48,515 nucleotides of DNA from a virus, in IMG/VR virus record IMGVR_UViG_3300029265_000290, positions 1 through 48,515 of that record; one strand, 5' to 3'. Positions within the stretch are counted from its first letter, which is position 1. Every line of letters starts with the position of its first letter. Shown piece after piece: positions 2,631 through 45,682 of this stretch. The position numbers were made by a program, and so were the translations under genes. The notes under the pieces were generated by a model. The model saw only the letters and a program-made list of their open reading frames with translations, did no database searches and was not told the origin of the DNA.

Positions 2631-2708
2631 ATGAAAGAGTATTATACACAGACTAACACATCGGGGACAGACCTAGGAATAGTTTATCACTTAAACCCTA
2701 ATGCGTAA
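2631..2708 (+). CDS. Possible very short ORF (25 aa)
   Basis: A 25-residue ORF, MKEYYTQTNTSGTDLGIVYH with a short tail LNPNA. It starts in an ATGA overlap with an even shorter reading frame (2590-2634, 14 codons) and overlaps the next membrane-protein start by eight bases. The region 2589-2700 has no other candidate gene. It could be real because phage DNA is rarely left empty, but only packing supports it. Confidence 0.3.
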   Translation: MKEYYTQTNTSGTDLGIVYHLNPNA

Positions 2709-2874: not shown

Positions 2875-3298
2875 ATTTATTGTTCATTCATCAGCTACTA
2901 GAGAGAATCAACCTATTTCTTTTGAAACAATAAAAAGTTGGCACGTTGATGAACGTGGTTGGAAAGATATTGGATACCATTATATAGTACACTTAGACGG
3001 AAGAATAAGTAAAGGCAGAAAAGATTCTGCACAAGGTGCTCATACTTCAGGGCACAATCACGATAGTTTAGGCATTTGTTATGTAGGTGGTGTTGAGTCT
3101 GACGGCAAAACTCCTAAAGACACAAGGACTTGTGCACAAATTGAAACCCTAGAATGCTTACTTCATACTTTAAAACAAATACATACTGACGCAGTAGTGC
3201 ATAGTCATAATGATTTTTCAGAAAAAGCTTGTCCTAGTTTTGATGCGACAGGTGAATATAAACATATAAGCGAACATAACTATGAAGAAAATTGTTGA
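2858..3298 (+). CDS. N-acetylmuramoyl-L-alanine amidase (T7-lysozyme-like endolysin)
   Basis: A 146-residue protein that cuts the amide bond between MurNAc and L-Ala in peptidoglycan at lysis. It is close in size to T7 lysozyme (151 residues). Visible signature: H10 in FIVHSS, catalytic Tyr40 in GWKDIGYHYIVHLDG, H117 in HSHNDF and K123-A-C125 in EKACPSF. These match T7 zinc ligands His17, His122 and Cys130 plus Tyr46 and Lys128, with the same H-to-C spacing of eight. I chose the start at 2858 because an upstream in-frame start at 2813 adds residues lying wholly inside the holin gene and outside the amidase fold. No signal peptide is present, so export depends on a holin. T7 lysozyme also inhibits T7 RNA polymerase; nothing here shows that function. 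Confidence 0.88.
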   Translation: MKKINKFIVHSSATRENQPISFETIKSWHVDERGWKDIGYHYIVHLDGRISKGRKDSAQGAHTSGHNHDSLGICYVGGVESDGKTPKDTRTCAQIETLECLLHTLKQIHTDAVVHSHNDFSEKACPSFDATGEYKHISEHNYEENC

Positions 3299-21702: not shown

Positions 21703-24700
21703 ATGGCAAATATAACTAGAAACTTTACTTCAGGTAAAATGAACAAGATGGTTGATGAGAGACTCGTTCCAAACGGGGAATACATTGACGCATTAAATGT
21801 TAGAATGGGTTCGTCAGAAGGCTCAGAAATAGGTGCAATAGAGAACTCAAAAGGTAATACAATAATAACAAACGTTCAGTTTGAAGGTCAAGCATTAAGT
21901 TCAAGTGCTAGATGTATAGGAGCGTATGAAGATGGTGCTGAGGAAACGTTGTATTGGTTTGTTAATGACCCGGAATTTGTTGGGACAGGAGCACCTGCAG
22001 GAGTTGTAGATTTAATATTATCATATAATACCAATTTAGATGTACTTACTTATCACGTTATTAGTGTAGGTGACCCACTAGATGCTACAAAAACTGTATT
22101 AAATTTTAACGCAGAGTTTTTAATTACAGGAGTTAGTAAAGTAGAAGACTTACTTTTTTGGACAGACAACTATAATCAACCACGACAGATAAATGTAGAT
22201 AAAAATTATCCAAATCCAATAAGTGGAGTTGATGTTTTAAGTGCTGAGTCTTTACTTGTTATAAAAAAACCACCTATAACTTCACCAAGAATTAAACCTA
22301 TTTCAACTTCTAGTCAAGATAATTTTTTAGAAGATAGATTTGTTTCTTTTGCATATAGGTATCGATATGAAGACGGACAATATTCAGCTACCTCTCAATT
22401 TTCAGGACCATCGTTCATACCTAAAACATTTAAGTATGACCCGACTACTGCTTTAAATGGAGGTATGTTGAATAGCACAAACCTTTGTGACATTACATAT
22501 AATACAGGAGGACCTCTTGTTATAGGTGTTGATTTATTATTTAAAGATATGAACTCTTCTATAATTAAAATTATAGAAAAATTAGATAAAGAGGAATTAG
22601 GGTTAGCAGATAGTACTGATTACTTATATACTTTTAGTAATAGTAAAATATTTACAATATTAGCTGACTCTGAAATATTAAGATTAAACGATAACGTACC
22701 GTTACTTGCTCAGTCTCAAACGATGATGGGTAATAGATTAATGTATGGTAACTACTTAGAGGGATACGACTTAGTTCGTAATAAAGTTAAAACTAAATTA
22801 GAATATGATGTAACTGTTACCAATAAAATAATTGGTCGTGAGCAAATTGCTTCAACACTAACAACGGGTACTTACACAATAGATGGGAATGTAACTATTG
22901 TTGGCTCTGTTATAAATATTGATTTAGCAGGACAAACACTAATACAAGGAGCGACCTTAAGTCTTTTTATAAGATTTCAACATTCACAATTTAGCAATAC
23001 ACCTCCAACACCTGCGGATACAACTCAAGAAGTAACAATACAATTTATATACACACTTCCGCAAGACTTTGCTAGTGTCTATGACCTAGCTATATCAACT
23101 GATTTTTCAGAAAAGATAGGAGTTGCTTCACAAATACTTGCACCTCAAGCTTCTTGTAATGGCGAAAGTCTTACTGATGTATTTAACTGTAGTCTTCCTA
23201 ATGAACTAAGTGGATTCTTTAAATATGAAAGTGGTATAAGTGCAGCAGCACAACCAATTGCAATTGGTGCTAGTCCATCTTCAGATGTTATTACACTACA
23301 GATACCTGCAGTAAGATATGTTGATAATCTTGTCACGATTACTGATAGTGTCTATGAGTATTATATAATAAATATTATAGATATTATTTTTCAAGATATA
23401 GGAAATCCTTCTAGCTTGCATAGTAATAGAGGGTATGAGATTGGTATAATTTATATGGATGAATTTCTTCGTTCAACAACTGCGTTAGTTAGTAGAAATA
23501 ACTCTGCTCATATTGGTTGTGAAAATTCAGACACACAGAATAAAATTAATGTAACAATACCAACAACACAGATTGCACCGGAATGGGCATCTAGATTTAA
23601 GTTTTGTATAAAACCTGATAAAGCAGATTACAATACTATATTTAGTCAATTCTTTTTTAGAGACAATACTTCAGGAGCCGATTACTTTTTGCTTGATGGA
23701 CAGAACGCTCAAAAAATAGAAGAGGGTGACGAGATGATTGTAAAAGCTGATACCAATGGTCCTAGACCAAACTGTACTTTTACTACAGTACTAGAAAAAA
23801 AAGCACAACTAAAAAACTTTCTTGGTGATGACAAACCTTTAGACCAAGGAGGAAATGAAATAGAGATTCCTTCAGGAGTTTATATGAAACTACAAGCAAA
23901 TAATTTTAGCACAGTAGTTGGAGAAAATCCTGTAGTTGACCCCGGAGAATTAACTTCTCAAGGTGGTGGTTGTAGAATTGTTAAATATCCTGTGGATGTT
24001 GAAGACCCTCAACAACCGGGAACGTTTATTGATTATGATATACCTTCAGGCTCAAGAATTTCATTCAGAATAAGTAATATTAGAAAAGGTAATACATCAG
24101 GTGGTTTGGGTTTAGGTAATGTTGCTAAAAAGTTTTGGGTAGTAGATGAAAACTTTGTCGCACCTCAAGATTATACCAATTTTAAAGCTTGGTTTGATGG
24201 GAATAATATTCAGCAAGTTTTACAAGTACAGGCAGAAGATGAAGGTACAGGTGTACAAGGACCTAACTATTCGCCAACAATTCAAAGCATTTCAGGAAGA
24301 CCTTGTAATACTACAAATATCTATACTAACTTTGAAACAACAGGTGCAGGTAATACACTAAGAAGCTTTTTTGGTGTAAAAAGTAGTGAAGGATATAGCG
24401 GTGGTAAAAAAAATACTAGACTAGAAGTTGAAATTGTAGTTGTTCGTGCAAACGGATTATTAGTTTTTGAATCTAAACCTGCAGATACAGTACCTGATTT
24501 ATGGTATGAATCATCTGAGTCATATGGAATTGACAAAACTAATGGAGAGCACAGAGGTAATATTCAAAATCAAAATTTTGCAAGTAACACACCTGCTATT
24601 ATTCAAACTGCTTTTGAGAATTGTTTTACTTTTGGTAACGGAGTTGAAAGTTTTAAAATTCAAGATTCAGTTATAGGTAAGCCTATGGTAATGGGTAACA

Positions 24701-26553
24701 GAGCACTTACAACTAATGAAGTAGATTACGCAGCAATAATTAGATTCTCAGACATTACTTATAGTGGTGTGTATAACGAAGAGTCTAACATAAACAAGCT
24801 AAACGAATTTAACGCAGGTCTGTTGAACTTTAAGGCTTGCGAGCAATCGTTTGGTCCTATTATGAAAATGCAGGCTAGAGAGACAGATATATTAGTTTTA
24901 CAAGAAGACAAGATATCTTATGTTTTATCAGGAAAGAATTTACTTTCAGATGCAGGAGGTGGAAGTTCTTTAACGTCTGTTCCACAAGTATTAGGAACTC
25001 AGATTGCAAGAATAGAAGAGTATGGTATTAGTCAAAACCCTGAGAGTTTTTCTATATACGGAGCAGAGAAATTTTTTACAGATGCTAAGAGAGGTGTAGT
25101 TGTAAAGTTGTTAGGTGCAGGAGGTCAATCAGACCAATTAACAATAATTTCAAACGAAGGTATGAGACCTTGGTTTAGAGATTTATTTCAAGTTAATTTT
25201 ACTACTCAGAAACTAGGAGGGTATGACCCTTATATGAATGAGTATGTTTTATCTAACAATACAATTCAACTACCGGCTCCTAAGATTTGTATCAACTGTG
25301 GTATTTCAAAAACATTAAATATTAAATCCACTAAAGCATTTACTCAATGTTATGATGTTGGAAGTTTAGTTGGTGATGTTAAGATTAACTATATTCTTAA
25401 TTCAATTGTTGCAGGTAGTACTTTTACTGTTTCTGCAACATACAATGCAACTACTGTTACATCGGGAGCCGTAACGGCAAGTGGAAGTATAACTATATCT
25501 AAAAATTTAGTTTTAGACTCCGAAGTAGATTTAACAATTACCACTACAGGTGAAGTTAATGTAACTGCTACGGTAGAATGTCCTGATGCTGATGACATTA
25601 GTATAAAATTAATTCACTTGTCAAGTAACAATGAGGCAGCCTTACAAATACACGATGAGTATAGATGGGTTGATGGTTCATTTGTTTCACCTTTACATTC
25701 AGAACAAGTTATTTTTGGAACAGGAACGTTCCCTATTGTTTCTTTATTTCAAACTATAACAGGTGAACAGGGAGCAGGAGTTATACCTACCAACGGTGCG
25801 GTTGTACAAATGTTATCAAACAAAATAAATAACGACACCTTTAACTTTAATATTTTAGAAGATACTTTTCAGTACTTAAGAAGTAATACTCTATATGGAA
25901 ATAATCCTACAGACATAGCTTTATTATTAGCTGCGGTAACAACTGCTACACCAAACGTTGCTCCTACAAATGGGAACACGGCATTTAGTGCAGACTTTGT
26001 TATGCCTAGTACAGGACAGTATTTATACTTAGTATGGGATACTAGAAACTCTACTGCATTAGATTTATGTTTTGGAGCAACTGCAGTAGCAGCTTGTTGT
26101 AGTTGTACAGGGTCAACACCTAATACTAATTTTACATTAGAAGATTGTTCAACAGGAATAAATTTCACAGTTGAAGATACTTATGGAGTGTTTTCAATTG
26201 GTGATGTGGTTCAATATAAAACAGGACTTGTTCCAAATCTAGGTTCTATCGTTGAGTGTGGAGAAATAATAAGCGTAGGAACAACTCCAAATGCTACATT
26301 ATATTCTGCAGTCGCTAGATTCTGTGGTGATACAGTTAATTGTGGAGACCAACAACCAAGTAATTGTAAGCAATATCAAACATCAACAACAAGTGGTTCA
26401 GGTATAACATATACATATACAGATTGTAATGGTGTAGCAAGAACAGACTCTGTTGGTGGAGCAAGTGGTTATGATTCAAACAGTTTCTGTGCTATAGATG
26501 GTACAGTAGTAGGAGCACCTAACTTATTAGACGAAGGGGATTGCTTGTTTTAA
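21703..26553 (+). CDS. Giant tail nozzle/tube (muzzle, tubular B-like) protein
   Basis: A 1616-residue protein. The N-terminus has FTSGKMNKMVDERLVPNGEY and IDALNVRMGSSEGSEIGAIE. This start ('F..GKMNKD.DERL.PNGEYIDA.N...') is typical of nozzle proteins that form the hexameric tail muzzle, related to T7 gp12 and P22 gp10. The central part is beta-propeller-like (LLFWTDNYNQPRQINVD) with large insertions. Around residues 1040-1180 are the conserved segments QARETDILVLQEDKISYVLS and EKFFTDAKRGVVVKLLG. The last 450 residues are cysteine-rich (for example AACCSCTG). At twice the length of T7 gp12, it probably also carries surface domains. DNA passes through it at ejection. Confidence 0.72.
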   Translation: MANITRNFTSGKMNKMVDERLVPNGEYIDALNVRMGSSEGSEIGAIENSKGNTIITNVQFEGQALSSSARCIGAYEDGAEETLYWFVNDPEFVGTGAPAGVVDLILSYNTNLDVLTYHVISVGDPLDATKTVLNFNAEFLITGVSKVEDLLFWTDNYNQPRQINVDKNYPNPISGVDVLSAESLLVIKKPPITSPRIKPISTSSQDNFLEDRFVSFAYRYRYEDGQYSATSQFSGPSFIPKTFKYDPTTALNGGMLNSTNLCDITYNTGGPLVIGVDLLFKDMNSSIIKIIEKLDKEELGLADSTDYLYTFSNSKIFTILADSEILRLNDNVPLLAQSQTMMGNRLMYGNYLEGYDLVRNKVKTKLEYDVTVTNKIIGREQIASTLTTGTYTIDGNVTIVGSVINIDLAGQTLIQGATLSLFIRFQHSQFSNTPPTPADTTQEVTIQFIYTLPQDFASVYDLAISTDFSEKIGVASQILAPQASCNGESLTDVFNCSLPNELSGFFKYESGISAAAQPIAIGASPSSDVITLQIPAVRYVDNLVTITDSVYEYYIINIIDIIFQDIGNPSSLHSNRGYEIGIIYMDEFLRSTTALVSRNNSAHIGCENSDTQNKINVTIPTTQIAPEWASRFKFCIKPDKADYNTIFSQFFFRDNTSGADYFLLDGQNAQKIEEGDEMIVKADTNGPRPNCTFTTVLEKKAQLKNFLGDDKPLDQGGNEIEIPSGVYMKLQANNFSTVVGENPVVDPGELTSQGGGCRIVKYPVDVEDPQQPGTFIDYDIPSGSRISFRISNIRKGNTSGGLGLGNVAKKFWVVDENFVAPQDYTNFKAWFDGNNIQQVLQVQAEDEGTGVQGPNYSPTIQSISGRPCNTTNIYTNFETTGAGNTLRSFFGVKSSEGYSGGKKNTRLEVEIVVVRANGLLVFESKPADTVPDLWYESSESYGIDKTNGEHRGNIQNQNFASNTPAIIQTAFENCFTFGNGVESFKIQDSVIGKPMVMGNRALTTNEVDYAAIIRFSDITYSGVYNEESNINKLNEFNAGLLNFKACEQSFGPIMKMQARETDILVLQEDKISYVLSGKNLLSDAGGGSSLTSVPQVLGTQIARIEEYGISQNPESFSIYGAEKFFTDAKRGVVVKLLGAGGQSDQLTIISNEGMRPWFRDLFQVNFTTQKLGGYDPYMNEYVLSNNTIQLPAPKICINCGISKTLNIKSTKAFTQCYDVGSLVGDVKINYILNSIVAGSTFTVSATYNATTVTSGAVTASGSITISKNLVLDSEVDLTITTTGEVNVTATVECPDADDISIKLIHLSSNNEAALQIHDEYRWVDGSFVSPLHSEQVIFGTGTFPIVSLFQTITGEQGAGVIPTNGAVVQMLSNKINNDTFNFNILEDTFQYLRSNTLYGNNPTDIALLLAAVTTATPNVAPTNGNTAFSADFVMPSTGQYLYLVWDTRNSTALDLCFGATAVAACCSCTGSTPNTNFTLEDCSTGINFTVEDTYGVFSIGDVVQYKTGLVPNLGSIVECGEIISVGTTPNATLYSAVARFCGDTVNCGDQQPSNCKQYQTSTTSGSGITYTYTDCNGVARTDSVGGASGYDSNSFCAIDGTVVGAPNLLDEGDCLF

Positions 26554-28634: not shown

Positions 28635-29150
28635 ATGGATAATGTTGATGCAAAGCTTAGTAATCCGGAGTATGTCCTAGAGTATATAAACCAAAACAGA
28701 GGTTTATTATGGGACAAAATAAAAGATTTTAAATCTATTATTACTTCTACCGAGGGTGTTGTACTTAACCATACGGAAGAGATGGATAATATGTGTCCTT
28801 TAAAGCATCATATAGAAGATGGTATTTATACAAGAGAACTATTTATGCCTAAAGGATTTTTAGGTGTGAGTTATATACACAAAACTAATCATCCTTCTTT
28901 TTTTATGAGTGGCGAAATGTCTATGGTTACAGACACAGGTAGCGTTGAAAGAGTAAAAGCACCTATGGTTGTGCAAACAAAAATAGGAACTCAAAGAGTT
29001 GTTTATGTACACGAAGATACCGTATGGGTATGTACTTATAGAACCGATGCCACTACCGTAGAAGAAGCAGAAAAACAAATATACACGGAGGACTATAGAG
29101 AACTTCCTGAGTATATAATTGAAAAACAAAATAGATTATGTCAGGATTAA
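28635..29150 (+). CDS. Cupin-like beta-barrel protein
   Basis: A 171-residue protein. Central segment KHHIEDGIYTRELFMPKGFL, GVSYIHKTNHPSFFMSGEMS and TKIGTQRVVYVHEDTVWVCT has the spacing of a cupin barrel ('H..G.Y.R....PKG....IHK..HP...SGE....' and 'G..RV.Y.HEDT.W'). Such proteins recur in phage virion operons with unknown role. The conserved His residues could bind a metal, but enzymatic activity is not shown. It overlaps the next gene by 13 bases and starts the internal-protein block. Confidence 0.6.
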   Translation: MDNVDAKLSNPEYVLEYINQNRGLLWDKIKDFKSIITSTEGVVLNHTEEMDNMCPLKHHIEDGIYTRELFMPKGFLGVSYIHKTNHPSFFMSGEMSMVTDTGSVERVKAPMVVQTKIGTQRVVYVHEDTVWVCTYRTDATTVEEAEKQIYTEDYRELPEYIIEKQNRLCQD

Positions 29151-30013
29151 TAGCAGGAATAGGAGTTGGTGTATCAGCCATAGGAACCGGATTAAGTTTT
29201 GGGCAAGCAGCATCTCAAAGAAAATTGTCTGAAGAGGCACAGAGACAAGCTGATGCAGCAATGGAGAAAGCTAGAGATAGATTGGATGTAAATTTTGCAG
29301 AAGGTCAATCAATAAAAAAAGAAGGTTACGAATTAGAAAGAGAAGCCAACTTAGCAGCAGGTGCACAGGCAATGATTGCTAGTGTTGAAGGAGACGCTAG
29401 GGGTGGAGCCGCAACTGCAGGTAGAGTTTTAGCACAACAAAATGCAGCACAAGCACAAACTCGTGTTGCTATGGGTGATGAACTTACCAATATTGAAACG
29501 TCAATAATGGAAGAAGAGTCTAGACTTAGAGACTTAAACGTATCATTAGATTTAGAAGAGGTTGCAGGTAACCAACAAAAAGCATCAGATGCAGCACGAA
29601 AAGCTTCAGCAGCAACTTCACAAGGGATTCAGCAAGGTATACAAACTGCAGGTGCAGCAGCCGCAGCATTCATTCCTTTATACCAAGAAAAAGTACAGAA
29701 CCAAATTGATGCTACAGGAGCAATGAGTTTAACTCCGGAACAATACGCAAAATTTGGGAATGTGAAAGGTGGTAGTATGGGTAAAGAGGGAACAGGTAAA
29801 TTTACTAATCTTGACTTTGATAAGATAAAAAACTTTAGCCGTAGAGAATTTAAAAACTTTAAAAAAGATTTAACTGTTGACCAATCAGCAGCACTTTTTA
29901 AAAGTAACCAATATTTAAAAAACTACAATAGTTATCCTACCTTAAGTCTTGATGATGATGAGGGGAACGGAGTACTAATAAACCCTATAACAGGTAGACC
30001 TTGGGGAGAATAA
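29138..30013 (+). CDS. Internal virion protein (T7 gp14-like position and composition)
   Basis: A 291-residue protein. N-terminus MSGLIAGIGVGVSAIGTGLS is a hydrophobic Gly-rich segment, then long Ala/Gln/Glu-rich helices with RKLSEEAQRQADAAMEKARD. A second Ala-rich hydrophobic stretch (AGAAAAAFIPLY) follows near residue 180. A short hydrophobic start followed by helices fits the smallest of the three T7-type ejected core proteins (gp14-like), which insert in the outer membrane during DNA entry. It is followed by two longer proteins with little space, mirroring T7 gp14-gp15-gp16. Family membership is inferred from order and composition. Confidence 0.6.
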   Translation: MSGLIAGIGVGVSAIGTGLSFGQAASQRKLSEEAQRQADAAMEKARDRLDVNFAEGQSIKKEGYELEREANLAAGAQAMIASVEGDARGGAATAGRVLAQQNAAQAQTRVAMGDELTNIETSIMEEESRLRDLNVSLDLEEVAGNQQKASDAARKASAATSQGIQQGIQTAGAAAAAFIPLYQEKVQNQIDATGAMSLTPEQYAKFGNVKGGSMGKEGTGKFTNLDFDKIKNFSRREFKNFKKDLTVDQSAALFKSNQYLKNYNSYPTLSLDDDEGNGVLINPITGRPWGE

Positions 30014-32056: not shown

Positions 32057-35000
32057 ATGAACGAAGAGGCAATTCAAGTAGCATACGATTTATTTGTACA
32101 AGACGGATACACAAAGACAATTGAAGATTTCAAAATGTTGATGGCAAACAATCCGGAAGGACAACAAGTTGCGTTTGATTTATTCAAATCTGATGGGTAT
32201 ACAAAAGAGATGGCAGACTTTCAAATCTTAATGGGAGCAGCAGAACCTGAAGAGGAAGTTGTTGTGGAGGAACCATTAAAAAAAAAAGATATTTTGGAAT
32301 CTCCATTGGCAGGTGGTGGTTCGGAGCAGTCCGTTATTAACACACCTACTCGTGATGAACTTCAAGATATGCTTGATGCTCCAAGGAATACTGCAGGGCA
32401 AAATAAGAATGAAGATAGATATGTAGACCCTATTAAAAAATTAGGGATGTATCCTGACGGTGGAGTAGAAGCAGTTGACAATGCTTTTGCACAACAACTT
32501 AAAGATATTAAAGTAACTGCACAAAGCGACAAGGAGCAACTACCTTTTGAAGAAGAAAGAAAAGCAAAAGAAGCGGAGACTCAGATAGCAGTTCAACTAA
32601 AATACGAGAAGGAAAGGCAAGCAATATTAAAATCACCTGAGTTTGAAGTTGCTCTTACACAAACTAATGCTGATGCAATCAATCAAGGGGAAGACGATGC
32701 AGTAGGATACTTCACAAAGCTATATGCACCTTATGGATTTTCATTTAGAACAACAGGAATAGGTGATGCAATGGTGGTTTATCCACCTAACAGTAACGAC
32801 CCTTTAGAAGTAGATTTAGATACATTTTTTTCTGACGATAAGGAAGCTTCAGCTTTAAGAGAATATGTTAAAGCTAATGCAGTAACACCTGATGAATCAG
32901 CTACAACTGCAAAAGAACAAGACGATATAACTCGTGCTCAAAGAGTAAGAGGTATGCGTAACACAGGTCGTATAAATAGTGATGGTACTGAGTCAACTGT
33001 ATTGATGGCTTCAGGAATAGTAGACGGTAAGTTTGTAGCTTATCCAACATTATTTCCTGATACTGAAGGAGACAATGGTCAATATGGAAGCGACCCTATG
33101 TGGTGGAAAGAAGAGAAAGGAATTGATGCTTTTAATGAAGCTAAAAAAAGAGGTGAGGTATTTGAGTTTGACACAGAAGATGAGGCTCAAGATTTTGCTG
33201 AAGGTTCTTGGAAGGATATAAACACAGTAGATTCAGAAGCTAATGATTTCTTTACTAAAAGAGGTTATGACTATAGTAGTTACAAGAAGAATTACGACAG
33301 GTATGAAGAGATAAGAGATGAACTTTATTTCTTAGAGGAAGCAAATTTTTATGAAAAAGATTTAACTGATGATGAGAGAAAAGAATTCTCTAACTTATAT
33401 GTTAATGGTAAAAGAAGAAACGGAGCAGTTGCAGAGAGAATAGCTGAGTTAAAATTAGAACAAGATAAATTATACTCTGTAGTTAACGACACAGAATTAA
33501 TGACAGTTCAGGAAGACTTTGATTTACATATAGATAAGAGACTTAATGAAAGAACAGGTGAAGCAGTCAATCAAAATAGAGTAGCTTTAGAATATGCTGA
33601 GGCACTTACGCTAGATAGTCAACAAAGATTTCAAGTTAATCCTGATAAGTTATATACAATAATTCCACAGAATGAGCAGGAACGTATAGTATTAGACCAA
33701 TTAAACACAGACTATGTTGAAGCTAAAGCTATACAACAACGTGCTGCTGATAAATATATGGTAGCTAGTACATTTCTTGATGCTAAGATTGATGAAAATG
33801 TTAGAGAAGAGTTTGTATCTAATTGGGCAGCGGTAACAAATGCTTCTATTAAAGGAACATCTCAAGGTAATGTTGGTAATGAGATTTTAAGAATGTCATT
33901 AGGTTTACAAGACCTTGATAACGATGCAAGTTCATTGGAAGCTGCAGACCGACTTATCCAATATATGCAAGACGGTGATACAGGAAAGACAGGTCGTGCA
34001 GAATACAGATGGCATTCAGCAAGAGGGTTCAAAGAAACTTGGGATGCTTTTAAAAATGACCCGGCAGAATTAGCAGTAGGTTTTGCAGCTAACTCAATAA
34101 GTCAAATGCTTCCATATGGTTGGAAAATTATAGGTACTTCAACTGCTGCAGGAGCAACTGCCGGTGGATTAATTGGTGCTTCAGGATTTGTTACAGGTCC
34201 CGGTGGTGTTTTAACAACAGGTGGTGGTCTAGTAGCAGGAGCAGGTTATGGTTTTAAATCAGGTATGGTGGCAACATCATTTGCTTTAGAGTATACCAAT
34301 GCAGTTATGGATGCAGTAAGGAATCAAGGATTTAATCCTATGGACCCGAACTCTTTAAAGGATGCTTTACAAAGTGAGAGTGTTTGGTCAGAAGGATTGG
34401 AGATAGGACTAAAGCGTGGTATCCCAATCGCTATTGCAGATATGCTTTCAGCAGGTCTTGCAGGTAGAGTATTTAAAGCAGGAGCACTTGCTTCAAGAGG
34501 AACACGAATTGGATTAGGTTTAACAGAACGTATAGTGTTTGACCCGATTATGGAAGGTCTAGGAGAAACTGCGGCTCAAGTTGTTGTTGGTGGTGAACTT
34601 GACTTTAAAGAAATTGCAGCAGAATCAATAGGTGGTCTTGGTAATCAAGGTCCTAATGCAGCGGTAAACATCTTTCTTGATGGTAGAGCGAGGAGTAATA
34701 TTGCTATTGCCAATAAGTTTACTGACTTAAAATTCTTAGCTAATGAGAAATATAGCGATACAAGAATATCAACTTGGGCAAATGGTATGGCTAAGGTAGG
34801 TCAGATAAGTGTAGAACAGAACCAAAGAATACAGGAGAACCTTGGGTTAAGAAGAGAGGCTCGTAATCTAATGAGCGTTGGACTTGATGGAGGAGTTAAT
34901 ACTTCAAACAATGTACAGGTAGACCCTACTGTAGAAGGAAGGTTAATGGAATTGATGGCGGCTAGAAAAGAACTATCGTCAACACCTAACAGAAAATCAG

Positions 35001-38000
35001 CATTCGCTGATAAGATATCACAAATTAATAAAGAGATTGCAGGTATCGTTGAAACCAAAGAACTTGTAGATAAAAATCAACAAACAATTCTTGTTGGTAC
35101 AGGAGTGTTAGACAGAACAGAGCAGGAAGGTTCAACCGATATTCGTAAAGGAATAAAACGTTACGCTATTAATGGAAAGGAATTTACTAAGAAAGAATTT
35201 CTTCAGAAGTTTAGTAAGCTTACAGATAAACAATTAAATAAAATTTCTATTACAGTAAATAACGATTCAGAAGTTGGTTCAGTAGTAGATGAGAAATATG
35301 AAGGGATTAAAAACCCAACTAAAAAAACTAAAGCAAACTCAGCTAGATTAAAAAATCTAATTGATAATGCAGAAAATATTGATGATGCTAACGCTTCATT
35401 AATTGAAGACAAGCCGTTAGATATTGACGGTGATATTAAAACAGAAGGAAAACGAAAAGCAAAAGAGGATGAATCTGAAGTACAGGTTGTCTCTGAAGTA
35501 GAGGTTGCTCCTGAAGTAGAGGTTGCTCCTGAAGTGGAGATTGAATCTGAAGTAGAGGTAGATTCTGAAACTGATTCTCAAGAAGTTCAAGACCTTAGAG
35601 ATTTAATAAACGGTACAGAGTCTGCACCTGTTGCTGAAGTAGAAGTTGCTCCTGAAGTAGCAGTTGAATCTGAAGTAGAAGTTGAATCTGAAGTAGAAGA
35701 TACATCAGTACCAACACCTACACCTACACCTACACCTACTCCTACTCCTAAATCAAGTAGGAAAAAAGTGAGAGCAGTATTCGCACCTTTTGAAAAGGGA
35801 AAGTTTAATGCAGATGAGGAAGCTGAAGGAGGTTTATTTATGACAACAGAAGGTGGTGAAATAGTAGTAAACCCGGATTATTCTAAAGGTTCGTTGACAA
35901 GAGTGATGAATAGTCCTGATTTGTTTGGTGTTAAAGACCCTGCAACAGGTGGTGTATGGGAGAATATGAATGAATTTACTAATGATAAAACAGGAATTAA
36001 AGTTCTTAAACCTGCTAAATATAAAACTGTTCAGAATGCAAATGGTACTAGCGATTTTGTTGTAGTAGAAAAAGGACAAATAGAATTTACTAATGACGGA
36101 GTAGTCTCAATGGATGAGACTGCACAGTTACAACTTGATGGCAGAGCAGATGAATCCACAGTAAAGAATTCAGAAAAAAGAAAGAAGGCTCTTGTAAAGA
36201 GAGCCACTAAGGTGATGGAAGAGATTCAGCCTGAACTTAGTGAGAACAACGTAGAGGTTGAAGATACCAATGCCAAAACAACTACAGTTGTAGTTACAGA
36301 AAACTCAGCACTTGCTGCTAAGGTAACTAAGATGGGTCTAAAAGAATTGATAGGTAAAAGAATTAATCTTGTTATGGCTGACCAATTAAAGGTAGACGAA
36401 AACAGAATGGGTGGTCCATTCTTTCCTTTGATGGATAAGTTATTTGGTAAGGTAGCTTGGGCATCTATCGGAAGAACTGATGCAAAGAAAATAGTTCTTG
36501 GTTCTATTGGTGCTGACTATAGTGTGGTGTATAATATGTCACCATCAGCAGTAGATTCTAATCTTGCTACGCTTGATACTCTTATTGATAAAATTAAAGC
36601 ATCGCCTAACTCAGAATTAATCTTTCAAGAAATGATGAAGGATATTCAGAGCAAGACATTTAAAGCAGGTAAGACAGAGTTGGTACATAAGATTGCTAGA
36701 GAGGCTAATACTCTTGAAGATTTTGTAGTAGAATTTGCAAAGTTAGATGTAGATAGTAAGGCTCAAATTTTTACTACCGTACTTCCATCATCTAGTGTTG
36801 AGGCTTCAACAACTGTGGGTAAATTATTTGCAGCAGAAGGAATAAGTCAGGAGTCGATTAGAGCAGAGAACACAGAACAGTTTGTATCAGAACTACCAAT
36901 GGGTGCTATAACAATGGTGTTAAAAGTAACCGACAAACAAGGTAACCCTGTTACTAAAGCTACAGTTGATGAGGCTCTTATTAGTCCTGAAGAACAAGAA
37001 TCAGAAGGACTACCTAAGCACAGAAATTATCCTTGGTATGTTAGAGGTAAGGCAGTTGGTATAATGGAGGAGACAGTTCCTTTTTGGAACTTGAGTAAGA
37101 AGTTTATGAGTACTATCAACGCTAAGATTGATGGTGTTATAAGAATGAAAGTTGGTGAGTTAACAGACAAGGTAACAGGTAAGGTTAAAAGAAAAGCCGG
37201 AACAAAAAGAACTTCGGCTGCTCAAGCTAGAGGTGCTGAAATGAAAAGAGCAATGGGTTCTTCTTCAGTTAACTTTGAAGTTCAGGAAGCTACCAACACA
37301 ACATACCAACAGTTTATAAAAAAATTAAGTAGAGCGTTTCCTAATACAGAAGTTGTTGCTACACAAGAAGAGTTTGATAGTTTAGTACAAGAGTTAAATG
37401 CTCAACAGTTAACTACAAAATCTCAGAAAGTTTATGGAGCCGTGTATCAAGGTAAGCTTTATTTAAACCCTGCTGCACAAAACTACAACACACCTATACA
37501 CGAGTTTGGTCACCTATGGTCTAACACGGCTAAGGCTATGAACCCTGAGTTATACAACAAAGGTATTGACCTTGTTAAGGATACTGCCTATGTTGATGAT
37601 GTAAAAAACAGTAAGGCATACAAAAAAATTGTTAAGCAGATGATTGCTGATGGAGCAACTGAAGCAGAGATTGAGCAATACGTTCTTGAGGAAGCACTTG
37701 CTACTGCAATTGGAGACCAAGGAGCCGCATTTGCTGAGGCAGCACAAAAGAAAAACTTTAAAGCTTGGCTTAGTGAGTTGTTTGATTTAGTTAAGAAGTT
37801 AACAGGGATATCAAATGTTACAAGTCTGCAGTTAGAGAATATGACTCTTGAAGATTTTACTCAAGCAGTTGTTGTAGACCTGCTATCAGAAAATGAATTG
37901 TTTGTTGGAGCAGAAGTGGCGGCACAGTCTCAGCAGTTGCAACTAATGACAGAGCCTAATACATCCAAGCAAAGCATTATAAATATAGGTAGAGAAAACG

Positions 38001-41000
38001 CAATGAGCGATGCTTCTATTCTTGTGGTATTAAAAGAGAATGGATTTAAAGATGTTAAAGCAAACAAGCAAGCACTTGAAGTTCAATTAAACTTACTTGA
38101 TACAATGCCAAGAGAGTTTGGTAATGTAGAAGGAGGAGCACTTGTAGGTACTGAATTGTTTAACGAAACGAAACAACAGTTAAACAAATATGGAACTCAA
38201 GGAAGAGGAAATAATAGGACTAAATCGTTTGCAGAAATAAGAGCAGAAGGTCAGAGATTAATAAAAGCTAATCCTATATTTGAAGCACAACCTGAACAAA
38301 CAAAGCTTGAGTTATTAAGTGCGTTTGATAGAGCACTTGGAATAAGAACTAACCCAACTGTTACTAGAGATATTGCTAGTGTAAGAAGTAAGCTTAAAGA
38401 ACAATACCTAGGAGAAAGAACTCTTGCTGCTGCACAACGTAAGTTGAGAATGCTTATAAGAAAAACAATGCCTAAGTCTAAGAACTATTCTAAAGGTCGT
38501 ATGGACAGGTTGATTAAAGCCGTTAACGAAACAACTGCTAAGAACTTTGATGGTCAAGTAACTAAAGTATTAAAGGAACTTGAAGGTCAGAGAAGTCAAA
38601 TGAAAAACGAAGTGCTTAGAAAAATGATAGCACTTGTAAAGAAGAAATCTAAAGCTGCAATTACTGCGTCTAAAAAAAGAAGGTCAGGTGGTTTAGATGC
38701 AATAGGTCAGGCATATTTTGCAGAAGTAAATAAGGTTTTAAAATTAGTTATCAATAATGATGTAGAAGGACTTAGGGCAGCAGCATTAGAGATAGACCAA
38801 GATGAACTTACAAGAGCGTTAGATAAGCTTGAGACAGGAGTGGATTTAACTAGAGATGAGAGAGGATTAATTGACCGTCAGTTAGCTATTGATACGTTTG
38901 GTGAGACAATGGGTATGGAGTTAGAGGAAGTGAATGCTTTGTATGATGAGGTTTTATTAACAAGAGCAGAGTCTATTGCACGATTAAACAATAGGAAAGA
39001 TGCAAGACGAATTGCAATCAATGAAATCAAAGAAGACTTTGATGCTGAGATTGAAATGAATTACAACGAACTGTATGATGAGAATGGAAACAGAAAAAGT
39101 TCTCAGCAATTAAAAAGAGAGAGCGAATCTATATATGAATCCTTTAAAAACAAAGGAATATTTGAAGGGATTAAAACTCTTCTAACTAAGTTTGTAAAAA
39201 ATCAGAAGTACACCACCAATGGTATAGGGGACTTTATGAGGAAGAACCTTTTACATCTTGGTACTATTTCTAACGTTTTAGATAGAGGTCAGAACGGTAT
39301 GTTTACTAAAACATTCTTCAACAGGCTTAATGAAATGGATGAGAATGGATTACAGGGTATGTTCAGAACCGAGGAGGTCTTTGATGAGATGGCTAATTCA
39401 TTAAAAGATTCTAAGAAAACTTGGAGAGATTGGAAAAATAACTTAGGTACACAGAAATTAAGTATTGATAAAATTACAAGTAACGTTAAGCAAAAGGACA
39501 ACACGGTTAAGAAGATGACTTACACAGGAGTATTTAATCCTGACCAAGCTTTAAGAATATATGCTCTATCTCTGAACCCTATTCAAAGACAGAAACTACT
39601 TGAGCAAGGTATAACACCGGCAGCTTTAGAAAGAATAAAAACTTTCATTGGAGTTGATGGTGTGCGAATGGCTGATATGACTGTAGACTTTTTTAGTAAT
39701 GACTATTACAATCAGGTAAACGATATTTATACTCAGGCAAACGATGTTAACTTAGGTTTTGTAGAGAATTATTTTCCTACTAGAACTGTAGGGTCAGAGC
39801 AAACTGCTGCTGATATGGTAGGTGGAGACTTTAGTAAAGTATTTACTGCTGAAAACTCTCCTGCATTACAAGAAAGAACAGATACCACGCAAGATTTAGA
39901 TATCAATTTAGGTTTTACAGAGGTAGTTGAGCAACACATTAAAGAGATGGAGCGATACAAAGCTTATGCTCTTGGTGTTAAACAAATGAATGAAGTTCTG
40001 AAATCACCTGCAATACAATTAGTATTAGAAAAGACAGGACTAACAACGTTGTTTAATCAAATGTTAAACTATGCAATTAACCCTGACGCAGGACCTGAAG
40101 TTTTATCTTCCGGAGTTATTAGTTGGGTGCAAAATAAGTTTTCAGGATTTGCATTAGCCTTTAAAGCAATACAAGTATTGAAGCAGGCAACATCTTTTAT
40201 TCAAGCGTTTGAAGACTACTCTTATAAAGGTGAGGATTCTAATATTCTTAGTAGAGTAATGATTGATGCACCAATGTTTATGGTAGATTATGCTAAGGTT
40301 ATTCTTACTCTTCCAAAACAAATTAGAGAGTCACAGGAAATATCAGCAACGTTTAAAAATAGACTGAGACAAGGTGTTGAAGGAGATGTATATGGATTAG
40401 AGTCAGGTGGTCGTACTTATAAAAAGTTAAGCAAATCGCCAAACAAGTATGGTAGAGCAAGCAGGAACTTTAAGACTGCAGCAGGTGCAGCAACAGTAGC
40501 AGGAGATATCTTAGGTGTTCTTGGATACAAAGCAGTATACAACAGAAACATTAGGAATGGAATGCCAAAGGCTGAAGCACTTGCATTGTTTAATAACTTT
40601 AATTCTACTCAGCAAACAAGAAGGTCTACTGAGAAGGTTGGTATTCAACGTGACACGAGTTGGATGGCAAGGTTCTTTACTATGTTTGGAAGTACGTTAT
40701 ACTTACAGATGAATAAGGTAGGTATGAGTATGAATAGTATGGTTAGAGATGCAGGTAGAGGTAAGCCACCTAAAGCAAAAGACGTTAGAGCATTTGCTTT
40801 AAACTTTGCAGTAGCCAATGTATTATTTACTGCCGCTGCTTACTCAGGAGCGTTACTAAAAGGAGATGATAAGGATAAAGAAGAGGCTTGGAAAGCAATA
40901 CGAAATGCTGCAACAGGACTTAATCTAATATATCAAATTCCTTTGATAGGAACAGGAATAGAAGTTGCACTAAACAAAGCTACAGGAAATAGAAAGCCTG

Positions 41001-41452
41001 TAAGCGAGGGAGTAAATCCTTTCACAAGTGTATACAGAAAGATGACTAAGGTATATAAAGCTGCTGATGATGGAGAGATTATTAAAGCATCAATTCCTAT
41101 AGTGGAAATATTAATTGGTGCTCAGTTAGACGCTCCATTTGCTTTAGGTAAATTATTTACAGGAGATGTAACTGATGATAACATCTTTGACTTAATTGGT
41201 ATATCACCGTCTTATAGACCGGGGTATGGTGTAAAGAAAAAGTCTAAACCTAAAACCAAAACGAGTTCGGGAATGTCTGCTTCAGATAAGAGAGCAATGA
41301 AAAAGTATGACCCTGCAGGATATGAGGAGAGATATGGTGAGAGAGATAGACGAGATGCAGAAAGAAAAAGAGAAAGAGGAAATCCTGAAAGAGATGCTGA
41401 AACAAAATCAAGAAATGAAGAGAGACAAAGACAAAGATTTTCAAGAGAATGA
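32057..41452 (+). CDS. Giant ejected polyvalent protein with HEFGH metallopeptidase motif
   Basis: A 3131-residue protein, likely carried in the head and ejected with DNA. Parts visible: residues 1-60, two copies of 'A.(Y/F)DLF..DGY.K...DF..LM'; residues about 295-390, a conserved domain with STVLMASGIVDGKFVAYPTL and DTEDEAQDFAEGSW; residues about 675-750, a Gly-rich hydrophobic segment (GATAGGLIGASGFVTGPGG); residues about 1139-1231, acidic EV repeats and PT repeats; H1815-E-F-G-H1819 in NYNTPIHEFGHLW with E1878 or E1879 downstream, a zincin-type site. After that, long charged helices, then a C-terminal region WMARFFTMFGSTLYLQMNKV with hydrophobic helices, and a very basic Arg/Glu tail. This matches the polyvalent proteins of phages, fused helper domains delivered at infection. 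Peptidase activity is inferred. Confidence 0.75.
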   Translation: MNEEAIQVAYDLFVQDGYTKTIEDFKMLMANNPEGQQVAFDLFKSDGYTKEMADFQILMGAAEPEEEVVVEEPLKKKDILESPLAGGGSEQSVINTPTRDELQDMLDAPRNTAGQNKNEDRYVDPIKKLGMYPDGGVEAVDNAFAQQLKDIKVTAQSDKEQLPFEEERKAKEAETQIAVQLKYEKERQAILKSPEFEVALTQTNADAINQGEDDAVGYFTKLYAPYGFSFRTTGIGDAMVVYPPNSNDPLEVDLDTFFSDDKEASALREYVKANAVTPDESATTAKEQDDITRAQRVRGMRNTGRINSDGTESTVLMASGIVDGKFVAYPTLFPDTEGDNGQYGSDPMWWKEEKGIDAFNEAKKRGEVFEFDTEDEAQDFAEGSWKDINTVDSEANDFFTKRGYDYSSYKKNYDRYEEIRDELYFLEEANFYEKDLTDDERKEFSNLYVNGKRRNGAVAERIAELKLEQDKLYSVVNDTELMTVQEDFDLHIDKRLNERTGEAVNQNRVALEYAEALTLDSQQRFQVNPDKLYTIIPQNEQERIVLDQLNTDYVEAKAIQQRAADKYMVASTFLDAKIDENVREEFVSNWAAVTNASIKGTSQGNVGNEILRMSLGLQDLDNDASSLEAADRLIQYMQDGDTGKTGRAEYRWHSARGFKETWDAFKNDPAELAVGFAANSISQMLPYGWKIIGTSTAAGATAGGLIGASGFVTGPGGVLTTGGGLVAGAGYGFKSGMVATSFALEYTNAVMDAVRNQGFNPMDPNSLKDALQSESVWSEGLEIGLKRGIPIAIADMLSAGLAGRVFKAGALASRGTRIGLGLTERIVFDPIMEGLGETAAQVVVGGELDFKEIAAESIGGLGNQGPNAAVNIFLDGRARSNIAIANKFTDLKFLANEKYSDTRISTWANGMAKVGQISVEQNQRIQENLGLRREARNLMSVGLDGGVNTSNNVQVDPTVEGRLMELMAARKELSSTPNRKSAFADKISQINKEIAGIVETKELVDKNQQTILVGTGVLDRTEQEGSTDIRKGIKRYAINGKEFTKKEFLQKFSKLTDKQLNKISITVNNDSEVGSVVDEKYEGIKNPTKKTKANSARLKNLIDNAENIDDANASLIEDKPLDIDGDIKTEGKRKAKEDESEVQVVSEVEVAPEVEVAPEVEIESEVEVDSETDSQEVQDLRDLINGTESAPVAEVEVAPEVAVESEVEVESEVEDTSVPTPTPTPTPTPTPKSSRKKVRAVFAPFEKGKFNADEEAEGGLFMTTEGGEIVVNPDYSKGSLTRVMNSPDLFGVKDPATGGVWENMNEFTNDKTGIKVLKPAKYKTVQNANGTSDFVVVEKGQIEFTNDGVVSMDETAQLQLDGRADESTVKNSEKRKKALVKRATKVMEEIQPELSENNVEVEDTNAKTTTVVVTENSALAAKVTKMGLKELIGKRINLVMADQLKVDENRMGGPFFPLMDKLFGKVAWASIGRTDAKKIVLGSIGADYSVVYNMSPSAVDSNLATLDTLIDKIKASPNSELIFQEMMKDIQSKTFKAGKTELVHKIAREANTLEDFVVEFAKLDVDSKAQIFTTVLPSSSVEASTTVGKLFAAEGISQESIRAENTEQFVSELPMGAITMVLKVTDKQGNPVTKATVDEALISPEEQESEGLPKHRNYPWYVRGKAVGIMEETVPFWNLSKKFMSTINAKIDGVIRMKVGELTDKVTGKVKRKAGTKRTSAAQARGAEMKRAMGSSSVNFEVQEATNTTYQQFIKKLSRAFPNTEVVATQEEFDSLVQELNAQQLTTKSQKVYGAVYQGKLYLNPAAQNYNTPIHEFGHLWSNTAKAMNPELYNKGIDLVKDTAYVDDVKNSKAYKKIVKQMIADGATEAEIEQYVLEEALATAIGDQGAAFAEAAQKKNFKAWLSELFDLVKKLTGISNVTSLQLENMTLEDFTQAVVVDLLSENELFVGAEVAAQSQQLQLMTEPNTSKQSIINIGRENAMSDASILVVLKENGFKDVKANKQALEVQLNLLDTMPREFGNVEGGALVGTELFNETKQQLNKYGTQGRGNNRTKSFAEIRAEGQRLIKANPIFEAQPEQTKLELLSAFDRALGIRTNPTVTRDIASVRSKLKEQYLGERTLAAAQRKLRMLIRKTMPKSKNYSKGRMDRLIKAVNETTAKNFDGQVTKVLKELEGQRSQMKNEVLRKMIALVKKKSKAAITASKKRRSGGLDAIGQAYFAEVNKVLKLVINNDVEGLRAAALEIDQDELTRALDKLETGVDLTRDERGLIDRQLAIDTFGETMGMELEEVNALYDEVLLTRAESIARLNNRKDARRIAINEIKEDFDAEIEMNYNELYDENGNRKSSQQLKRESESIYESFKNKGIFEGIKTLLTKFVKNQKYTTNGIGDFMRKNLLHLGTISNVLDRGQNGMFTKTFFNRLNEMDENGLQGMFRTEEVFDEMANSLKDSKKTWRDWKNNLGTQKLSIDKITSNVKQKDNTVKKMTYTGVFNPDQALRIYALSLNPIQRQKLLEQGITPAALERIKTFIGVDGVRMADMTVDFFSNDYYNQVNDIYTQANDVNLGFVENYFPTRTVGSEQTAADMVGGDFSKVFTAENSPALQERTDTTQDLDINLGFTEVVEQHIKEMERYKAYALGVKQMNEVLKSPAIQLVLEKTGLTTLFNQMLNYAINPDAGPEVLSSGVISWVQNKFSGFALAFKAIQVLKQATSFIQAFEDYSYKGEDSNILSRVMIDAPMFMVDYAKVILTLPKQIRESQEISATFKNRLRQGVEGDVYGLESGGRTYKKLSKSPNKYGRASRNFKTAAGAATVAGDILGVLGYKAVYNRNIRNGMPKAEALALFNNFNSTQQTRRSTEKVGIQRDTSWMARFFTMFGSTLYLQMNKVGMSMNSMVRDAGRGKPPKAKDVRAFALNFAVANVLFTAAAYSGALLKGDDKDKEEAWKAIRNAATGLNLIYQIPLIGTGIEVALNKATGNRKPVSEGVNPFTSVYRKMTKVYKAADDGEIIKASIPIVEILIGAQLDAPFALGKLFTGDVTDDNIFDLIGISPSYRPGYGVKKKSKPKTKTSSGMSASDKRAMKKYDPAGYEERYGERDRRDAERKRERGNPERDAETKSRNEERQRQRFSRE
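35473..35750 (+). repeat. In-frame EV-rich and PT-rich low-complexity repeats
   Basis: Two blocks with units such as GAAGTAGAGGTTGCTCCT and GAAGTAGAAGTTGAATCT code for VEVAPE/VEVESE repeats. A tail of CCTACA/CCTACT units at 35711-35749 codes for a Pro-Thr run. This is a likely flexible linker between the membrane-active half and the peptidase half of the giant protein, and a likely site for slippage. Confidence 0.8.
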
Positions 41453-41553
41453 GAAAACTAATCACTATAATTATATGTCTATTGGTATTGAGCAGTTGCT
41501 CTACCTTTAAGAAGATACCTAAAAAACTACCAAGCTATGCCGTTCAAAAGTAA
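41449..41553 (+). CDS. Tiny lipoprotein, candidate outer-membrane spanin or superinfection factor
   Basis: A 34-residue ORF starting in the ATGA overlap with the giant gene: MRKLITIIICLLVLSSCSTF followed by KKIPKKLPSYAVQK. It has a positively charged start, a hydrophobic core and a lipobox LSSC with Cys17, so a mature lipopeptide of 18 residues is expected in the outer membrane (Ser at +2). Such short lipoproteins act as Rz1-type outer-membrane spanins, or block superinfection. No inner-membrane partner (Rz) is seen next to it, and the lysis genes are 38 kb away. Its end overlaps the next start by 17 bases. The ORF is clear; the role is inference. Confidence 0.6.
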   Translation: MRKLITIIICLLVLSSCSTFKKIPKKLPSYAVQK

Positions 41554-41680
41554 AGCACAAAAAGCGTGGATGTATGCCAACAAACCTGAGTTAGCAAAGG
41601 AATGGAGTAAAGCGTATGATAAGAATTACTTACCTGATAGGTTGCATCCAAAAAGAGTTAGAAAAAAAGGTAAGGTATAA
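41537..41680 (+). CDS. Small basic phage protein (47 aa)
   Basis: A 47-residue basic protein, MPFKSKAQKAWMYANKPELA continuing KEWSKAYDKN and ending VRKKGKV. The start 'MPFKSKAQ..WM.ANKP..A..W' is a very common small phage protein of unknown role, often near structural genes. It is the last gene of the rightward unit; its stop codon touches the stop of the oppositely oriented gene with no base between. Confidence 0.65.
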   Translation: MPFKSKAQKAWMYANKPELAKEWSKAYDKNYLPDRLHPKRVRKKGKV

Positions 41681-43617: not shown

Positions 43618-44025
43618 TTAATCTTTCTTTATGATAAACAAACCGTCCTGCTCTATAAAGTATAACATATACTCTATATCGTTAGATGAACCCTCTCTTG
43701 GTTTTCTTCCTCCTATCTTTCCTGAAGAGTATATATGTTTAGTGTTACCATATATCAGACCATCTAAACAATCCCATATAACAATTGACTCTTCACCCTT
43801 GTCAACAAGCTTAACCATTTTTCTAGCAGCTAACGGTAGTGGATATGCATCTTCAATGTTTCTATTCCTTCCCTTTACTTCAACGTAGCAAACTCGTTCA
43901 CCTCTTGTTACTTTAAAATCTACATCATTCTTATCTAGCTTTTTCCATTTAGCTAAAAACTTTTCACAGAACAATGCTATTGCTTTATTTTCTCTTACGA
44001 TATCTTTTCGGCTTTCAAATCTCAT
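43618..44025 (-). CDS. PD-(D/E)XK nuclease-like protein (135 aa)
   Basis: A 135-residue protein. The segment KNDVDFKVTRGERVCYVEVK shows D36, then E49-V-K51 with strand spacing of a PD-(D/E)XK fold, followed by GRNRNIEDAYPLPLAARKMV, a basic helix. C-terminal part is a beta region (YMLYFIEQDGLFIIKK). Likely a small nuclease or DNA-end-binding protein. It shares four bases with the SNF2 helicase gene (ATGA), so the two are probably made together. It is distinct in sequence from the VRR-NUC protein next to it. Confidence 0.6.
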   Translation of the reverse strand: MRFESRKDIVRENKAIALFCEKFLAKWKKLDKNDVDFKVTRGERVCYVEVKGRNRNIEDAYPLPLAARKMVKLVDKGEESIVIWDCLDGLIYGNTKHIYSSGKIGGRKPREGSSNDIEYMLYFIEQDGLFIIKKD

Positions 44026-45491
44026 ATGGTTTTATTAAAGTGTTTAAGTGTGTAATCTTTTTTATTAGTTACTGCCTTGTATATGTCCTGTTCTATTCCA
44101 CCTTCAGAAAATATCCAATACACATCAGACTCTAACCTTTCTTTGGTTGTCATCCTATCTCTTGATTGCCAATAACTTGTGGCACTAAAGTCTATATTAT
44201 AATACACTAATGCTTCAGCTTTCTGTAAGCTGATACCTTCTCTGCCTGATACAATTTGTAAGGCTATAGTCTTATCTGTTTCCTCAAAGTCTTTTAACTC
44301 AGTACAAAGACTGTCTCCATACACTTGCTTCAAAGCATTTAATTCCTCCTTGAACTTATAAAATATTCCAACCTTTGCATCTCCAAAGTTATCGTGGATA
44401 TATTCTGCCTTAGATAAATCTAATATGGTAGACTTACCGGATTCAAACTTAACAGTTCCGGAAAACATTTGATGAAGTTTCATCATTAACTTTACAGGGG
44501 TGTCACCTAATATGGTTTCCTCCTTACCTTCTATAACTAAATCTCTTTTCAATCTAGCAGTTAGCTTGTATGTTATATCTTTCATTGGCACAAACAATGT
44601 ATGTTCACGAGTATCTACCTTAAAACCTGCTTGCTTCTGAGTATATGATATGGTATACTTATTCATCTCTGAAAGTATCTCAATTAAACCATCCTTGTAA
44701 TCATTCATTAGCAATCCGTTTATCTTTAATTGCTTTACGTTCACAAACTTCTTAGAGAACTTATAGAAATTAGAGAACTCACTAAAAGGATTGTTCTTTA
44801 TTCCCCACACTTGATGATACATCTGACTGTATGATTCGGGTGTCGGTGTTCCGGATAATAATATAACGTATGGGTTATGCTTAGTCATATCTCTGACTTG
44901 CTTGGCTCTTTTACTTGGCTTTGGAAAAGCACCCATTGAATGTGCCTCATCTAGTATTAACATATCGTATGAAGGAATATCTTCTACCTTGTGTAGCGAC
45001 TCATAATTTATTACAGTCAATTCAAAGTCGGGATATAGTAATTCATAATCACTTTCGATACTGCTAATAGCTTTCTTCTTTGTAACAAACAAAACTTTTT
45101 TACAATTCATTAGCTGAGAGATACCCATACTTGTTAAGGTCTTACCTGTTCTAACCTCCATTGCTAGGTAAAGGAATCGATTTAAGATTAACACCTCTGC
45201 TCCTTCCACTATTATTTTTTTCTGATATTCTCTGTATTTTATTTTAGATTCACGTTTCATTCTTTCTTTATAATAGTTTAAACTCTGAATTGATTTAGTC
45301 TCTACGTCCTCTGTAAACTTATAGACTCTACGTTGAACAACTTTTTTATTACGACCTCTGCCTACCGTTACATCATATGTTTTAAAAATTATATTATGTG
45401 TAGTAAGGCAGGCTTGGTACATCATCTCATCAGAATATCCCGATGTTCTTTCTATGATTTTTTTGTTATGTAATTGTGTATCGCTTGACAT
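44022..45491 (-). CDS. SNF2-type superfamily 2 DNA helicase/translocase
   Basis: A 489-residue ATP-driven DNA translocase. Motifs: Walker A EVRTGKT (residues 112-118), motif II DEAH (181-184, LILDEAHSMG), motif III LSGTP (212-216), and motif VI QSRDR (442-446). The order and 'VRTGKT...LDEAH...SGTP' style match the SNF2-like helicases of phages. It probably remodels or unwinds replication or recombination intermediates, together with the two small nuclease-like genes downstream. N-terminal about 80 residues are basic. The start at 45491 overlaps the previous gene by 40 bases; a later start at Met23 or Met24 is possible. Confidence 0.83.
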   Translation of the reverse strand: MSSDTQLHNKKIIERTSGYSDEMMYQACLTTHNIIFKTYDVTVGRGRNKKVVQRRVYKFTEDVETKSIQSLNYYKERMKRESKIKYREYQKKIIVEGAEVLILNRFLYLAMEVRTGKTLTSMGISQLMNCKKVLFVTKKKAISSIESDYELLYPDFELTVINYESLHKVEDIPSYDMLILDEAHSMGAFPKPSKRAKQVRDMTKHNPYVILLSGTPTPESYSQMYHQVWGIKNNPFSEFSNFYKFSKKFVNVKQLKINGLLMNDYKDGLIEILSEMNKYTISYTQKQAGFKVDTREHTLFVPMKDITYKLTARLKRDLVIEGKEETILGDTPVKLMMKLHQMFSGTVKFESGKSTILDLSKAEYIHDNFGDAKVGIFYKFKEELNALKQVYGDSLCTELKDFEETDKTIALQIVSGREGISLQKAEALVYYNIDFSATSYWQSRDRMTTKERLESDVYWIFSEGGIEQDIYKAVTNKKDYTLKHFNKTI

Positions 45492-45682
45492 TTTATGTAG
45501 TCTTCTTTAAATTCGTAGTAAATTAGTAATGCCTCTAGTCTATCTTTATGAGGCACAAGTCTTGCCGGATTATGAATGAAGTAAGGGTCTTCCTCGTCCA
45601 TTATTTTCTCCCAATCATAGTTTAATATTATGACTTTGTACGAATTCTCATAAGCAATTTCTAAAATCTCTTCTTGAGTCAT
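45452..45682 (-). CDS. Small hypothetical protein (76 aa)
   Basis: A 76-residue protein, MTQEEILEIAYENSYKVIIL, then EKIMDEEDPYFIHNPARLVP and a helix ALLIYYEFKEDYIKCQAI. No known motif. Its start shares one base with the stop of the primase-helicase (TAATG on the minus strand), so it is translationally coupled; its end overlaps the SNF2 gene by 40 bases. Confidence 0.6.
   Translation of the reverse strand: MTQEEILEIAYENSYKVIILNYDWEKIMDEEDPYFIHNPARLVPHKDRLEALLIYYEFKEDYIKCQAIHNYITKKS

Follow-up and report, generated by a model that had tools for sequence, protein, structure and literature searches.

A predicted third ejection protein with a conserved zincin domain in a Bacteroidota podovirus-like genome

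Described ejection systems and the layout of the locus

Ejection proteins of T7-like phages are encoded in a small-medium-giant order (PMC8954989), and this order recurs in DEV, in which the three ejection genes form one transcript (PMC10925440). In N4, the virion RNA polymerase (vRNAP) gp50 is laid out as a membrane N-terminus, an HExxH subdomain and a large C-terminus that is helical and has a new fold (PMC12633501). Giant cargo proteins are also held in the virions of crassviruses (PMC10172136), and a zincin-like metallopeptidase (MPTase) inside a giant phage protein is a known feature of the polyvalent proteins (Iyer et al. 2017).

The DNA analysed here (the window) covers an IMG/VR virus record from end to end (48,515 bp). 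No end repeats were found on it, and the record may be incomplete, since several records of relatives reach 57-62 kb. As the original prediction had stated, one large gene takes up about a fifth of it (19.4%), and its single ORF of 3131 codons runs uninterrupted from ATG to TGA (Table 1). The product has a mass of 347 kDa and a calculated pI of 5.2, and gave no usable match in Pfam or PHROGs, a T4SS_pilin match at residues 2917-2965 falling under the cut-off. The gene starts 16 bases behind the preceding one and is the last and largest of a three-gene ejection-type operon (291, 669 and 3131 aa). The same order of a small (150-360 aa), a medium (430-800 aa) and a giant protein was found in 72 of 80 non-redundant related loci.

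Like N4 gp50 of the Schitoviridae, the giant is encoded third, after the small and medium ejection proteins (gp52-51-50 in N4), falls in the range of about 3,100-3,500 aa, and has a layout of a Gly-rich, presumably membrane-active N-terminus and an HExxH domain followed by some 1,100 residues predicted as helices. No direct HMM match to gp50 was significant, and neither Pfam nor PHROGs gave a match to a T7-like single-subunit RNA polymerase domain; a search of the record with PF00940 was empty, as was its control search, which likewise returned no match at all. We liken the giant to N4 gp50 in position and layout and do not claim vRNAP identity. With T7 gp16 and the third ejection proteins of other podoviruses it has in common the place in the operon (gp14-15-16 in T7) and a presumed role at the inner membrane. 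Unlike T7 gp16, it is more than twice as long and has a zincin instead, no transglycosylase being recognised. By position it can also be likened to gp47, gp49 and gp50 of crAss001, giant cargo proteins of the virion whose genes follow the muzzle gene in a crassvirus tail cluster; unlike the window giant, these are RNA-polymerase-associated.

Table 1. Positions of the operon genes, tail genes and segments of the giant protein in the window
Feature	Coordinates	Strand	Basis or remark
Tail protein, 1616 aa, muzzle-like by position	21703..26553	+	30% identity, E 1e-137, to phi18:3 gp114
279-aa protein, crassvirus muzzle C-terminal domain PF25729	27773..28612	+	E 1.2e-16, above Pfam cut-off
Small ejection protein (gp14 position), 291 aa, Gly-rich N-terminus	29138..30013	+	phrog_13764 virion structural protein; conserved order
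Medium ejection protein (gp15 position), 669 aa	30031..32040	+	conserved order
Giant third ejection protein (predicted), 3131 aa	32057..41452	+	single ORF; homologues of 2400-4700 aa in >100 loci
N-terminal tandem motif, 2 copies of ~30 residues (1-60)	32057..32236	+	both copies recognisable; at extreme N-terminus in most homologues
N1 module (1-290)	32057..32926	+	profile module
YPTLFPD (YPT) domain, optional (296-392)	32942..33232	+	in 25 ORFs; absent from L002
R2 module (394-1004)	33236..35068	+	conserved module; membrane activity presumed
Gly-rich uncharged run, 43 residues (691-733)	34127..34255	+	reached in 0/500 shuffles of protein
Variable bay	35069..36169	+	length in relatives 164-2464 residues
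R3 domain (1372-1701)	36170..37159	+	high-confidence AlphaFold model
Zincin domain (1752-1948)	37310..37900	+	profile, conservation, AlphaFold model
HEFGH, putative zinc site (1815-1819)	37499..37513	+	HExxH in 62/64 (first set, partly motif-fetched) and 41/41 non-redundant homologues
Glu1879, presumed third zinc ligand	37691..37693	+	64/64 (first set, as above) and 41/41 non-redundant homologues
Helical C-terminal region (1970-3055)	37964..41221	+	AF2 model nearly all helix, pLDDT 75.7 (moderate)
Conserved C module, within helical region	39557..41221	+	profile module
TM-like segment (2909-2936)	40781..40864	+	hydropathy up to 1.53 over 19 residues
Basic tail (3056-3131)	41222..41449	+	25 K/R vs 15 D/E

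For Cellulophaga phage phi18:3, the annotation of gp114, gp120, gp121 and gp123 as virion proteins derives from experimental MS/MS, and the last three occupy positions equivalent to those of the three operon proteins of the window. A link between the two giants is provided by gp74 of the Tenacibaculum phage Gundel_1 (Pachyviridae; Gundel was shown by TEM to have podovirus morphology, PMC8776804), which is preceded by 511-aa and 225-aa genes. It has 37% identity to the window giant over the zincin and carries the same C module; its N-terminal half differs from that of the window giant and is instead shared with Cellulophaga phages, including phi18:3 gp123. Presence in the virion is very likely because of the tail-protein homology, the MS/MS of the phi18:3 proteins and the regions of both giants joined in Gundel_1. 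From position and this two-step homology we infer that the giant is very probably packaged and enters the host cell before the DNA. The earlier claim of an ejected virion protein thereby gains indirect support, as the genes are ordered as in T7 and N4, the tail protein has its homologue in phi18:3, and the MS/MS data concern the positional equivalents in that phage.

Several neighbouring genes were also noted. The stop codon of the giant gene overlaps the start (ATGA) of a 34-residue lipoprotein-like ORF (41449-41553; MRKLITIIICLLVLSSCSTF...), which suggests that the two are translationally coupled; this ORF could encode a spanin or an exclusion lipoprotein. Its end is overlapped by a 47-residue basic ORF (41537-41680; MPFKSKAQKAWMYANKPELAKEW...). 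A probable fibre protein of 839 aa, encoded at 6769-9288, contains long stretches of collagen-like GXX repeats together with a BppL_N-like match, and a 161-aa ORF (2813-3298) was judged by eye to be similar to an N-acetylmuramoyl-L-alanine amidase endolysin. On the minus strand lie a BT4734-like/PriCT primase-helicase (45682-48087) and an SNF2-type helicase (44022-45491).

Modules of the giant protein

The division of the giant into modules was obtained from iterated profile searches, which showed that N1, an optional YPT domain, R2, the bay, R3, the zincin and the helical C-terminus are gained and lost independently; by this sequence measure the giant is a mosaic protein. All of the smaller elements described previously, namely the tandem N-terminal motif, the YPTLFPD-type domain, the Gly-rich segment, the acidic/PT linker and the basic tail, could be located in it.

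In four loci (L037:1807-3768, L069:836-2647, L074:705-2591 and L085:295-2115) part of the N1 module is found again close to the C-terminal end of the medium protein encoded upstream, and from this matching domain it appears that the giant and the medium protein may bind a common partner. The tandem motif was also seen as a separate 139-aa ORF directly upstream of a giant (L055:4533-4952). A stand-alone YPTLFPD-type domain is found in Pseudomonas phage Littlefix (Schitoviridae), where the 147-aa gp26 (L202:8800-9243) sits among N4 gp67-69-like genes.

The candidates for membrane insertion, picked from sequence features only, are the 43-residue uncharged Gly-rich run, which has counterparts of like kind in the homologues, and the TM-like segment. 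Membrane segments had been predicted for the protein, and these two bear that out in part, strong transmembrane segments being few and mainly those two. In the bay of the window giant, acidic EVEVAPEVE repeats are followed by (PT)n (residues ~1143-1231; ~35483-35752), and no domain was recognisable beyond this linker. The bays of relatives contain a GNAT domain (L069), a DUF3293 (L083) or extra zincins (L002 and L079).

The AlphaFold model of R3 together with the zincin has a mean pLDDT of 90.8. A Foldseek search with this two-domain model gave no significant match in the PDB, and matched predicted structures of viral proteins, including Gundel_1 and elemo structural proteins. Regions 1900-2400 and 2400-3100, to which no role could previously be assigned, now resolve into a conserved helical module, yet one without a known fold, as the model of residues 1970-3055 had no significant Foldseek match in the PDB either.

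The zincin domain and its relatives

The first set of homologues (64 non-redundant members, counts in Table 1) is biased for conservation, as the HEFGH motif served in part to fetch it. Two giants, those of L060 and L073, have EEAGH, with Glu in place of the first zinc-binding His, and these variants are expected to lack activity. HExxH is also absent from the positional equivalents phi18:3 gp123, phi38:1 gp101 and phi13:2 gp127. The EEAGH homologues and the phi18:3-type equivalents suggest that the role in ejection is independent of the peptidase.

The motif bias was removed in a second set, fetched with the C module alone, which comprised 80 loci, partly on the same contigs as the first. Four of its giants were truncated before the zinc site, leaving 76 that were informative. 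The orthologous zincin was present in 63 of these (HEFGH, HEMGH, HEVGH and one HEMSH), a different HExxH domain, mostly HE[IV]FH, in 11, and neither in two, proportions that are indicative since the loci are not all independent. Among the 41 non-redundant zincin domains of this set the H, E, H and the downstream Glu are invariant. The HE[IV]FH type, also seen in elemo phages, is joined to the same C module in L163, L165, L171, L173, L176, L178, L179, L180, L187 and L189, and in those giants the HE.GH peptidase has apparently been replaced by an HE[IV]FH peptidase.

In the AlphaFold model strands precede the HExxH helix, and the Glu lies on a later helix. The zincins of Schitoviridae vRNAPs similarly have a strand followed by T-x-x-HExxH and a downstream Glu, and a profile-profile comparison with N4-type zincins gave a weak match (probability 34%, E 4e-4). 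When the profiles of the zincin and of the C-terminus were searched against PDB sequences, no match was significant; one weak match, centred on the motif, was to a bacterial toxin zincin. The conservation of HEFGH among homologues, on which the earlier claim depended, was found in a looser form, as the zinc-site residues are kept within HE[F/M/Y/V]GH; the motif stands at residues 1815-1819 and is not strict. What had been called a metallopeptidase is a well-conserved putative zinc peptidase. Its zinc-site residues are conserved as would be expected of one; zinc binding and cleavage are what we infer from them, and peptidase activity is a prediction from sequence.

The nearest named relative, MW202828, is about 30% identical, and its annotation as a 'reticulocyte binding/rhoptry protein' is misleading, while a closer pair of IMG/VR contigs has 43-53% identity along most of the giant. 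A search with the zincin retrieved 80 viral loci and 22 loci in genomes, most of these 22 from Bacteroidota MAGs and isolates. Among cultured relatives, Gundel_1 and the elemo phages of Flavobacterium carry zincins within the same protein. Domains in the relatives include ART-PolyVal, LPD23, LPD1, LPD5, InPase, Kinase-PolyVal and PBECR1. Polyvalent proteins are defined by at least two domains of disparate activity; this holds for relatives, whereas the window giant shows the zincin as its one recognisable enzymatic domain and has no LPD match. The giant is of a known kind, that of polyvalent and ejection proteins, and is a variant with a peptidase where N4 carries an RNA polymerase.

Possible roles of the peptidase

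Taken together, the giant is likely to be the third ejection protein, largest of the three, in a Bacteroidota podovirus, the positional equivalent of T7 gp16 and N4 gp50, equipped with a zincin peptidase. Its best reading is one of a crassvirus-like tail combined with a peptidase in place of the N4 RNA polymerase. The 291-aa, 669-aa and giant proteins would be packed in the virion and expelled through this tail ahead of the DNA, the small protein forming an outer-membrane pore and the medium one a periplasmic tunnel. By analogy with N4, T7 and the crassviruses, the giant would be ejected last and thread the channel, its destination being the inner membrane or the cytoplasm; it would insert by its Gly-rich module while its C-terminal half is brought to or across the inner membrane. 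The peptidase would act on arrival, most likely on the ejected chain or its partners, and cleavage could release the helical C-terminal part or the bay cargo, or remodel the channel.

For the MPTases of polyvalent proteins the explanations listed are that they process their own protein, either in the capsid or after injection, or that they act on host targets (PMC5512222). We tentatively favour processing of the giant itself or of the ejectosome, including before packaging, as the main role of the peptidase, since no other part of the mosaic is as constant as the zincin and the rest of its cargo varies. It is possible, though doubtful, that the ejected zincin instead cuts a host protein involved in defence, transcription or the envelope. 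The bays of relatives do carry modifying enzymes such as the GNAT, the ART-PolyVal, kinase and PBECR domains found among 15 giants belong to a cargo type thought to act on the host (PMC5512222), and the recurrence of a second HExxH type suggests a selected enzymatic activity; yet in both presence and conservation the zincin is far more uniform than the bay cargo, which varies, and such uniformity is unusual for an arms-race effector. The original prediction had named host defence or transcription proteins as targets, and nothing was found that favours a host target over self-processing, a defence target being speculation.

The zincin fold might also be kept for encapsidation or folding, with catalysis dispensable. 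In N4 the MPTase-bearing region is required for encapsidation and the protein is packaged uncut (PMC5512222), and homologues with EEAGH occur. Such a structural or packaging domain is nonetheless unlikely, as four zinc and catalytic residues invariant in all 41 non-redundant domains go beyond the needs of a scaffold, and in some giants the zincin is replaced by a different HExxH domain. Quite unlikely, too, is a maturation protease acting before or in the capsid, with part of the cut giant ejected. This reading follows a suggestion made for P1 DdrB, which has an MPTase domain and is processed prior to packaging; N4 gp50, alike in layout to the giant, is packaged whole (PMC5512222). A chance HExxH within an ordinary large structural protein, an idea to which the phi18:3-type equivalents lacking the motif lend something, can safely be dismissed, as any HExxH arose in just 1 of 500 shuffles of the giant and the motif is invariant across the family.

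Still open is the question of how the giant proteins and DNA of podoviruses get across the envelope, and of how the channel is closed afterwards (PMC12633501). A conserved peptidase in the third ejection protein, together with natural variants lacking HExxH and a second peptidase type, offers a direct genetic handle on it, and since zincins occur in cultured relatives, one catalytic mutant phage could separate self-processing from host targeting. It is conceivable, if uncertain, that in Bacteroidota podoviruses the inner-membrane end of the ejectosome bears a peptidase that sits in the slot of the N4 RNA polymerase or the T7 transglycosylase and that has, on at least one occasion, been exchanged for another HExxH domain. 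Acting moments after entry, such a peptidase would dismantle or gate the channel and release cargo, or would disarm a host protein.
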